Source: Deltaproteobacteria bacterium
GTDB taxonomy: Bacteria > Desulfobacterota > DSM-4660 > Desulfatiglandales > HGW-15
Assembly (NCBI GenBank): GCA_016931115.1
Contig: JAFGFM010000032.1
Location: 1 to 48,946, forward strand
DNA: 48,946 bases
Reading direction: 5' to 3'
The translations under genes and the position numbers were made by a program. Every line of letters begins with the position of its first letter. Position 1 is the first letter of the stretch. Below are positions 10,967-13,854 of the stretch, piece after piece. The notes beneath the pieces were generated by a model. That model was not told the DNA's origin and did not search any database. It saw only the letters and a program-made list of their open reading frames with translations.

Positions 10967-11007
10967 ACGAAATATTTCGTTGACAACTACGAAACAGTTC
11001 GTATATT
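10967..11007 (+). promoter_or_regulatory. Promoter overlapped by two palindromic operators (BlaI type)
   Basis: TTGACA (10980-10985), 16 bases, TATATT (11002-11007). One palindrome, ACGAAATATTTCGT (10967-10980), abuts the -35 box; a second, TACGAAACAGTTCGTA (10988-11003), fills the spacer. Both are built on TACGAA half-sites. BlaI/MecI repressors bind paired palindromes of this layout, usually with a TACA-type half-site, over their own promoters. A BlaI-family gene lies two places downstream, so it is the likely ligand. Confidence 0.75.
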
Positions 11008-11074
11008 ATTTCCATAAACAAAATGGTTAGTTTTGAAGATTATTATTAAACCTTATAGATAAGGAGAAGATAAA

Positions 11075-11491
11075 ATGAAAAAGATCATTAAATATGCTGT
11101 TTTGTTTTTTATAACCCTTGTATTTGCTGCATGCGCAACAACTAATTTTAAGGTGGCAGACAAATACAACCTTGATAATGAGCTGAAAGAGGCGACAGAG
11201 GTTAACAGCTTCAGGATAGACAGCTGGGAATCAATAGATTTACAGTCCCTGATACTGAAGGCAGATTTTAATAACTACTATCTGGTTATCCTGAACCGAC
11301 CGGCCATAGCCCTCCCATCCAGCGAAAGCATTGGTTATACAGTATCCATTGACAGGGTAAAGAAGGGTTTTGACAGTATTGTAGTTGCAGACTCCAGTGG
11401 CACTGAGTCCTATATTATCCATAAGATATATAAACTCGACAGCAGGAAGCAGGCGACTGAAATAAAAAACAGACTTAAAAAGAACATGTAA
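11075..11491 (+). CDS. Lipoprotein with DUF6491-like domain
   Basis: A 138-residue lipoprotein: hydrophobic signal and lipobox AACA with Cys at about residue 21. The mature part (FRIDSWESIDLQSLIL, then YYLVILNRP, then GFDSIVVAD) resembles the DUF6491 family, recognised from memory. AAGGAGA precedes the ATG. It is the first gene after the BlaI-type promoter/operator and is followed by a BlaI-family repressor and an M56 protease. The extracytoplasmic end of that protease shows the same pattern (IHRIDNIDVLDQYTIL, MYLTRLSDPC, SKFDHIQAI), so this lipoprotein may be its ligand partner or its regulated target. Function unknown. Confidence 0.8.
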   Translation: MKKIIKYAVLFFITLVFAACATTNFKVADKYNLDNELKEATEVNSFRIDSWESIDLQSLILKADFNNYYLVILNRPAIALPSSESIGYTVSIDRVKKGFDSIVVADSSGTESYIIHKIYKLDSRKQATEIKNRLKKNM

Positions 11492-11508
11492 AGCCAAATT
11501 GTATAAAA

Positions 11509-11533
11509 TGTGCCGGTATACTTAACCGGCACA
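11509..11533 (+). other. Intercistronic hairpin
   Basis: TGTGCCGGT pairs perfectly with ACCGGCACA around a 7-base loop, between the lipoprotein and the BlaI-like gene. No U-run follows, so it is more likely a message-stability or partial attenuation element than a full terminator. It would allow more lipoprotein than repressor to be made. Confidence 0.5.
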
Positions 11534-11558
11534 ATAATAAAGTAATCAGAGGGTAAAT

Positions 11559-11972
11559 ATGAATACAGAAGAGGCACCCATACCAACTGAAATGGAGCTG
11601 GAGATACTGAATGTATTATGGCATGAAGGACCATGCACTGTACGAGAGGTGCAGGCTATACTCAATAAGACAAAAAACACAGGCTATACAACCGTGCTCA
11701 AGATGCTTCAGATCATGACACAGAAAAGGCTCGTAACACGTGATGAATCAAACCATGCGCATGTTTATGTGGCAGGCTGTTCAAAACAGAACACACAAAA
11801 AAGGCTGGTAGATAATCTACTTGTAAAGGCATTTGGAGGTTCACCAGTACAGCTTGCAAGCACACTCTTTTGCTCAGAAAAACTGACAAAGACAGAGTTT
11901 GAAATCTTAAGAAACGAAATTCTCACGCTTCAAAAAGAGGAGAATGAAAATGTGGATAGCAAGGCTTACTGA
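11559..11972 (+). CDS. BlaI/MecI-family transcriptional repressor
   Basis: A 137-residue winged-helix repressor. PTEMELEILNVLWHEGP, TVREVQAILN and GYTTVLKMLQIM form the N-terminal DNA-binding domain in the usual order; the C-terminal half is the dimerisation and cleavage region. AGAGGG precedes the ATG. BlaI proteins repress their own operon and are inactivated when the partner M56 membrane protease senses a signal. Here that partner is the next gene, overlapping by 23 bases. No beta-lactamase or PBP gene is nearby, so the regulated function is not obviously antibiotic resistance. Confidence 0.92.
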   Translation: MNTEEAPIPTEMELEILNVLWHEGPCTVREVQAILNKTKNTGYTTVLKMLQIMTQKRLVTRDESNHAHVYVAGCSKQNTQKRLVDNLLVKAFGGSPVQLASTLFCSEKLTKTEFEILRNEILTLQKEENENVDSKAY

Positions 11973-13854
11973 ACAGGTTATTGAATACCTGCTTATATCA
12001 TCAGCCCTGCTTTTTTTGCTGGGCATAATGAGCCTTTTTGCGGTTCAATTATTCAGAATAAAGGGCAAAACGAAAATATGGATATATGCCCTTATATTTA
12101 TACTGCCCGTTGTCTACCCTTTCCGCTCCATTTTACCTGAATCAGTCAAAATTACTGTCCCTCTGCAATCGGAATATCTGAAGCCATTAAAAGGTGTTTC
12201 TCTATTAACCCCTGTTTCAACAGAAACATCTCTCTCTCATGTTGTCCCTGTGGTTACAGATAAGATTGCTGGCAGCAAAATTAATGATACTGAGATAAAG
12301 AAATCTCCCGGTGAGTTTAGAGAACATGCCATTGATACTGCATCCATGTTATTTGCTAACTGGAAACTGGTTGCAGCAATGCTTTGGATGATGGTCTTTT
12401 CCATCTTTCTTATCCGTCTGATTGCAGCCACGCATACCATAAAAAGGCTTCTCAGGATTTCAACCCCTGTAACAGACCAGAGGGTCATTGAACTGCTTCG
12501 TCAGTGTGCCTCGGATACCGGTCTCACATATGTGCCTTCGCTTTATGAAGTTCAGGGTCTTTCCACTCCCATGTCAATGGGTTTTATAAGGCCTGTAATA
12601 GTGCTCCCTGGCCACCTCCTCGCAGGGGAATCCATAGAGCATTTGAGGTTCACACTGCTTCATGAACTGAAGCATATAGATCAGCGCCATAACCTGTGGC
12701 TTTTAATAGAATCAATAATTGGTGCAATATATTTTTTTCACCCGGTTATACACTGGGCCAAAAGAAATATACATGAAGAGATGGAGCATATCTGCGATGG
12801 GCATGTTATAAAGGTTACCCAAAAAAGTATCACATATGCTGATTTTTTACTTAATGAGATCTGGCAGAATAGCCCTGGCAGACACCCCGCTTTCTCCCTG
12901 CCCTTTATATCATCTGCCTCAAAAACAGCAGATCGTATCCGTTTAATACTTGAAAACAGGGTTGCCTCTGCCTCTATGCCTGCCCGCGAGGTAATTGTGG
13001 TGGCATCGGTTTTTATACTCTTTTCATCCTTTATCTTTTTTACAGGCGCCGCCAGGGTGCAGGGGCCGGAAAAGGTGACACCCCCCATATCATCATTTGA
13101 TATAGTTGAAAGGGTAGCTGAACCTCTTCTGCCCTTGGGTATTGAGAATATAAATGGCTCTTCAATAACTACCCCCTTACCCTTTTCTGAAGATAACAAG
13201 GCAATGGAGAGAGATGAGACTGCTACCAGTCTGATCAATTCTGAAACACCAGTCAAAAAGGAATATGTTGCAGAAAACCCCGGGACAGCCACTAATAAAC
13301 AGATGAACTTAACCGCTGATAATACAAGGCTGGAAAAGGCCATTCAACCCGCGGGCCTTCATGCTGAAGAGCCTGATAATATATTGGATGACAAAAGTGA
13401 TATCAGTATGAACCTCTCCCAGGTAGATAATAATCAGTTAACAGAGACCCTTAAAGAAACATTAGAAATCCCGGTGGAGACCTCTGCTCAAAAATACCTT
13501 GGTGCCCCGGTCAAGGAGCTGACGATCCATCGTATAGATAATATAGATGTGCTTGATCAGTATACCATCCTTTTTATCATGCGCGGGGGAGATATGTATC
13601 TGACCAGGCTTTCAGACCCATGCCTGGAGCTTTTATATGCAAACGACTTTAACCTGCCCTCAACTACCGGGAGAATCAGCAAATTTGACCACATTCAGGC
13701 AATATCAAATAACCAGATTATGGGTACAACAGGCATGCTCGGGGAATTTTATCCATACAGATATGAGGGGACTAAAGGGGAGGCGATTAAAATTCTTAAA
13801 AAATCTCTTTTAAAGGATCTTGTAGCAGAAAGGGCTTTTAAAGAATTCCAATAA
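11950..13854 (+). CDS. BlaR1/MecR1-type M56 membrane metallopeptidase with DUF6491-like sensor
   Basis: About 634 residues. The ATG at 11950 is spaced correctly from GAGGAG (11937-11942); one at 11944 is too close. Counting from 11944, hydrophobic segments lie near 14-36, 45-60, 140-160 and 350-368. The zinc protease domain carries HELKH (240-244) with the third ligand region NIHEEMEHICDGH (275-287). In BlaR1 the periplasmic end is a penicillin-binding domain; here it is replaced by a Thr/Glu-rich linker (about 375-515) and a terminal domain (525-605) with the same pattern as the operon's lipoprotein. It would relay an envelope signal to the BlaI-like repressor. Confidence 0.85.
   Translation: MWIARLTEQVIEYLLISSALLFLLGIMSLFAVQLFRIKGKTKIWIYALIFILPVVYPFRSILPESVKITVPLQSEYLKPLKGVSLLTPVSTETSLSHVVPVVTDKIAGSKINDTEIKKSPGEFREHAIDTASMLFANWKLVAAMLWMMVFSIFLIRLIAATHTIKRLLRISTPVTDQRVIELLRQCASDTGLTYVPSLYEVQGLSTPMSMGFIRPVIVLPGHLLAGESIEHLRFTLLHELKHIDQRHNLWLLIESIIGAIYFFHPVIHWAKRNIHEEMEHICDGHVIKVTQKSITYADFLLNEIWQNSPGRHPAFSLPFISSASKTADRIRLILENRVASASMPAREVIVVASVFILFSSFIFFTGAARVQGPEKVTPPISSFDIVERVAEPLLPLGIENINGSSITTPLPFSEDNKAMERDETATSLINSETPVKKEYVAENPGTATNKQMNLTADNTRLEKAIQPAGLHAEEPDNILDDKSDISMNLSQVDNNQLTETLKETLEIPVETSAQKYLGAPVKELTIHRIDNIDVLDQYTILFIMRGGDMYLTRLSDPCLELLYANDFNLPSTTGRISKFDHIQAISNNQIMGTTGMLGEFYPYRYEGTKGEAIKILKKSLLKDLVAERAFKEFQ

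Follow-up and report, generated by a model that had tools for sequence, protein, structure and literature searches.

A probable BlaI/M56 sensor operon whose membrane protease carries a DUF6491-like head

Introduction

BlaI/BlaR1 and MecI/MecR1 are the closest described relatives of the operon analysed here. Each pairs a BlaI-family repressor, acting at dyad operators over the promoter of an autoregulated operon, with an M56 membrane zinc protease that carries a C-terminal extracytoplasmic head. The classical bla/mec operator has the core TACA/TGTA. In canonical BlaR1 the head is a class D beta-lactamase-like sensor that induces a beta-lactamase (PMC7593790); the head is related to the type of protein induced. 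In the SigI/RsgI system, by which Clostridium thermocellum senses biomass, a membrane regulator likewise has an outer domain that shares homology with one of the products under its control: RsgI6 carries a GH10 sensor with 57% identity to Xyn10D, and SigI6 recognises the Xyn10D promoter (PMC4711584). RsgI is an anti-sigma factor rather than a repressor-cleaving protease, and its carbohydrate ligands are known (PMC4711584).

Here we describe an operon from a deltaproteobacterial lineage that resembles the bla and mec switches in its repressor, operator layout and protease, and departs from them in its head. We analysed a 48,946-nt stretch of DNA (the window), which is part of the draft genome G000 (5.18 Mb in 240 contigs). 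The comparison genomes were G001, from the window's genus; G006, from another genus of the same family; and G015, also from that family. A sequence-only reading of the window had proposed a self-regulated BlaI/BlaR1-type circuit whose sensor lacks a penicillin-binding domain and resembles the lipoprotein co-expressed with it. It suggested that sensor and lipoprotein might compete for a ligand or signal to each other directly.

Results

The operon spans positions 10967-13854 of the window and encodes, in order on the plus strand, a DUF6491 lipoprotein, a BlaI-type repressor and an M56 (BlaR1-type) protease. The lipoprotein (11075-11491; 138 aa, lipobox cysteine at residue 20) is a clear member of DUF6491 (PF20101, E 1.3e-20, 74.2 bits against a Pfam gathering cut-off of 27.5), and its G001 ortholog is 82% identical with a dN/dS of about 0.19. 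The repressor (11559-11972; 137 aa; PF03965, E 8e-23) is more tightly kept, at 93% identity to its G001 ortholog and a dN/dS of about 0.07. The protease reading frame (11944-13854; 636 aa; PF05569, E 2e-30) overlaps blaI by 29 nt.

Two tandem dyads cover the operon's promoter. Dyad 1, ACGAAATATTTCGT, lies at 10967-10980 and dyad 2, ACGAAACAGTTCGT, at 10989-11002, spaced by 22 bp or about two helical turns. Their shared pattern, ACGAAN4TTCGT, occurs twice in the window against 0.02 copies expected from shuffled sequence, is kept in G001 and G006, and differs in its ACGAA/TTCGT core from the bla/mec operator. The plus-strand promoter (10980-11007) has its -35 element, TTGACA, between the dyads and its -10 element, TATATT, over the end of dyad 2; at 11 of 12 consensus positions it is the top match in the region and the sole strong one. 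This operator-promoter block is near-invariant across G000, G001 and G006 while its flanks diverge, and BlaI would be expected to occupy both dyads. Because the tandem arrangement occurs only once in the 5.18-Mb genome, the regulon looks limited to this one operon.

An RNA hairpin separates the lipoprotein gene from blaI. Formed by GTGCCGGT and ACCGGCAC at 11509-11533 on the plus strand, it has a folding z-score of -2.4, and its counterpart in G001 one of -4.1. The hairpin is conserved and strong; on the coding strand it has no T run, and on the opposite strand it looks like a terminator. Possibly it sets unequal levels of lipoprotein and regulators, which is a guess.

The protease has the core of an M56 enzyme. 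Hydrophobic segments fall at residues 10-41, 45-65, 136-166, 251-269 and 342-372, and both the sequence and a motif scan place an HExxH zinc motif, HELKH, at residues 240-244 (12661-12675, plus strand). The third zinc ligand is probably E281 of an ExxCD motif (residues 281-285; 12784-12798). This protease part evolves under constraint between G000 and G001 (dN/dS 0.24). By analogy with BlaR1, the chain from about residue 372 onward would be extracytoplasmic. It begins with a low-constraint linker (residues 371-505; 13054-13458, plus strand) that is 49% identical to that of G001, with a dN/dS of about 0.90.

What follows the linker is not a penicillin sensor. A profile search of the protease returned no transpeptidase, beta-lactamase or penicillin-binding match, and the NCBIfam BlaR1 model NF000326, whose cut-off is 400 bits, scored 87.9, with the match confined to the protease part. 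Unlike BlaR1 and MecR1, which have a penicillin-binding, class D beta-lactamase-like head, the window's protease ends in a DUF6491-like one; the gene it would induce encodes a DUF6491 lipoprotein of unassigned function, and the regulon holds no beta-lactamase or PBP2a gene. We looked for the sensor and the regulon that define a BlaR1 beta-lactam receptor and found neither, so the operon should not be classed as one, though it very likely works like one. Four points of the sequence-only reading stand: the BlaI/BlaR1-type circuit, the missing penicillin-binding domain, the DUF6491-like nature of the sensor, and a DUF6491 lipoprotein encoded with it in one self-regulated operon.

The head of the protease is clearly homologous to the DUF6491 family. 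It extends from about residue 508 to the C-terminus at 636 (13465-13851, plus strand), longer than the 525-605 first proposed. Single-sequence matches to PF20101 fall below the Pfam cut-off of 27.5 bits: residues 516-590 of the whole protein give E 9.9e-5 (22.8 bits), the head alone gives E 1.3e-5 (25.7 bits), and the G001 ortholog protein gives E 3.9e-4. Profile-profile comparison, which the sequence-only reading had named as a check, is significant. With hhalign, a three-row head profile matched five lipoproteins at 92.9% probability (E 3.6e-7) and eleven lipoproteins at 84.8% (E 6.6e-6); the real score was 45.2, against at most 19.5 in 80 column shuffles and at most 13.4 for two reversed profiles. 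Scanning 142 proteins of these genomes and their relatives, we found DUF6491 lipoproteins at the top after the head's own ortholog and a free G015 protein, and first among them was the ortholog of the operon's own lipoprotein. Direct BLASTP between head and operon lipoprotein was marginal (25% identity over 61 aa, E 0.001 as one comparison).

Selection sets the head apart from the linker that carries it. Between G000 and G001 the head is 82% identical, and its dN/dS of about 0.25, against 0.90 in the linker, makes it a module held under constraint at the end of a loose tether. It has one conserved cysteine, Cys560 (13621-13623). AlphaFold2 models built from one or two sequences reached a pLDDT of 52 for the head and 68 for the lipoprotein; these low-confidence models, which show strands followed by a C-terminal helix in a similar order, are too weak for a fold comparison and do not count as evidence here. 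A sequence search of solved structures gave no convincing relative (best E 0.54), and Foldseek with the low-confidence lipoprotein model returned nothing significant in the PDB (best E 0.15).

The head belongs to another subgroup of DUF6491-like proteins than its neighbour. The closest relatives we found were the free secreted G015 protein (40% identity) and a protein from a Sphingomonas plasmid (30%), and both score below Pfam's DUF6491 cut-off; a plasmid search with the lipoprotein as query gave no match. The free secreted relatives have extra cysteines in their mature part, whereas the head has Cys560 alone and is fused to a membrane protease. We considered that the head had been copied from the operon's lipoprotein and rejected this, at about 25% identity between the two. 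Because free secreted proteins of another subgroup are closer, the head probably arose otherwise than by duplication of the neighbouring gene. The proposed resemblance between sensor and lipoprotein therefore survives as remote homology across subgroups, not as close kinship.

Both the family and the fusion are rare. DUF6491 scores above cut-off in 3 of 395 genomes of the phylum, and the head was found in 2 of the 395, both of the window's genus (G000 and G001), outside which we found no fused form. Across 84,980 GTDB species genomes, a scan with short patterns, which distant relatives can escape, found one locus, the free G015 protein.

The lineage has several further DUF6491 lipoproteins away from the operon. 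In each species of the genus, one such gene lies just upstream of genes for a Fur/PerR-type regulator and a catalase-peroxidase resembling KatG (L044:1452-4622, G000:C16; L062, G001:C5; neighbours named by eye), hinting at a tie between DUF6491 and oxidative stress. Another single lipoprotein gene is apparently split over two contig ends (L046:14-262 and L047:2-367; G000 C223 and C33).

A second genus keeps the cluster with a different head. G006 has the same operator, a close BlaI, a protease core of 42% identity and a DUF6491 lipoprotein nearby, and its protease head consists of TPR repeats. From the shared operator, BlaI and core we conclude that heads have been exchanged on one chassis. 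Since G006 pairs a TPR head with a DUF6491 lipoprotein, the cluster can persist without matching domains. A gap of about 280 bp separates the G006 protease gene from the lipoprotein gene downstream, which may not share its transcript. Next in the cluster is a Sel1 protein that is in part 30-33% identical to the protein that G000 and G001 encode after their TPR-headed M56 genes. Proteins in that position form a family unmatched in Pfam (L041:2-709, L042:4735-5442, L069:2877-3644 and L049:7061-8389), whose member in G006 is joined to Sel1 repeats in one protein (30-33% identity, lowest E 7e-47).

M56 heads vary widely in these genomes. Elsewhere they include PBP (transpeptidase), TonB_C, SLT and TPR domains. 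The TonB_C-headed proteins (G000:C181, G000:C189 and G006:C246) share with the window's operon a BlaI and a head of another type than the penicillin-binding one, and in two of the three loci a tonB gene of the same domain adjoins. At G000:C181 the gene follows an ExbB/ExbD/TonB cluster (head against neighbour, BLAST E 3e-16); at G006:C246 it precedes tonB (E 2e-15). G000:C189 had no matching tonB neighbour within the stretch read, so matching between head and neighbour is not universal. We found no ACGAA dyads at any of the three loci. We did not count a TPR head next to a TPR or Sel1 gene as a matching pair, because TPRs match one another indiscriminately. In 297 genomes of the phylum, nearly all of the top-scoring M56 matches with head-length frames came from the window's family and from one other genome, whose M56 has, by eye, a penicillin-binding-like C-terminal domain.

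Two of these loci are of interest in themselves. At G000:C181 (L039:611-8699) the ExbB/ExbD/TonB-type cluster is followed by a TPR protein and then by BlaI and the TonB_C-headed M56, apparently joining a BlaI circuit to a TonB energy-transduction operon. At G000:C218 (L043:659-2673) BlaI precedes an M56 that ends in an SLT lytic-transglycosylase domain (PF01464, E 5.9e-19); this relative of BlaR1 may sense peptidoglycan.

Discussion

We read the locus as an autoregulated operon of BlaI/M56 type in which a DUF6491-like head stands in place of the penicillin-binding one, that is, an envelope sensor with BlaR1 logic and a swapped head; judged from sequence and its conservation, we put the probability of this reading at about 0.55. 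At rest, BlaI dimers on both dyads would repress all three genes. The DUF6491-like head would meet a ligand or an envelope state in the periplasm and, once engaged, would activate the cytoplasmic zinc protease, which would cleave BlaI directly or indirectly and free the promoter. The lipoprotein would then act on that ligand or state, or on a related one, and the signal would drop. By analogy with BlaR1 and RsgI6, what the head detects is probably what the DUF6491 lipoprotein handles. This pairing is not certain, because the two domains belong to different DUF6491-like subgroups.

Several lines of evidence favour this reading. Domain content and order, the homology of head and lipoprotein, the near-invariant operator-promoter block and the single tandem site all fit it, as do a constrained head beyond a free linker, the overlap of the blaI and protease frames and the persistence of the cluster in a second genus. 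M56 heads do swap, TonB_C heads stand beside tonB in two loci, and BlaR1 and RsgI6 provide precedents. Against it count the TPR head of G006, which accompanies a DUF6491 lipoprotein, and the restriction of the fusion to two genomes.

An unlikely alternative is feedback by direct contact, in which the lipoprotein binds the protease head and holds the protease off, as CpxP holds CpxA off. Induction would then follow when the lipoprotein is titrated, damaged or mislocalised, and the operon, improbable as this is, would monitor its own product or lipoprotein traffic. The two homologous domains are both expected in the periplasm, where they could make homotypic contact; the lipoprotein gene comes first behind the shared operator, and with the genome's only tandem operator at this operon the system would be mostly self-regulating. 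Yet the two orthologous pairs offer no evidence of an interface or of co-variation, G006 keeps a related lipoprotein with a TPR head, and the head is nearer to free secreted proteins than to the lipoprotein.

It is equally doubtful that head and lipoprotein have no functional link, with DUF6491-like domains serving as generic periplasmic modules and the head sensing something unrelated to the lipoprotein's task. The lineage's several other DUF6491 lipoproteins, including the one encoded next to Fur and KatG, would suit such a view, as would the different subgroups and the common swapping of M56 heads; but with DUF6491 this rare in the phylum, chance co-occurrence in one operon is unlikely, and a like match of head and neighbour is seen where TonB_C heads adjoin tonB genes. 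Very improbably, the head is a structural tail or its DUF6491 similarity is spurious, as a sub-cut-off Pfam match and a poor model might suggest: in profile-profile comparison shuffles and unrelated proteins score far lower, the dN/dS is low relative to the linker, and the head sits where BlaR1 has its sensor.

The envelope sensor with a swapped head is new in its head and old in its logic. The sequence-only reading had called it a form of BlaR signalling not seen described; a product-like sensor is already known in BlaR1 (PMC7593790) and RsgI6 (PMC4711584), and what is unrecorded is the DUF6491-headed variant of the penicillin-sensing BlaR1 switch. We found no mention of DUF6491 in the literature searched, and a search on M56 head diversity turned up the BlaR1 review alone. 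A broader rule can be stated only tentatively, and we would not yet bet on it: M56/BlaI receptors may have a head of the domain family to which the operon's product belongs, and exchange it as the product changes. Candidate examples under this speculative rule would be a PBP-like head with a beta-lactamase, TonB_C with TonB, and DUF6491 with a DUF6491 lipoprotein.

Work on BlaR1 has treated it almost solely as a receptor for antibiotic resistance. This operon and the variety of M56 heads in these genomes suggest that the protease-repressor pair is a general chassis for envelope signalling with exchangeable heads. If the rule is true, M56 receptors would be a broad class of product-mimicking sensors, the penicillin receptor being one case, and gene neighbours could predict what an uncharacterised M56 receptor senses. 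For DUF6491, a family with no known function, fusion to a receptor opens a reporter-based route to its ligand.
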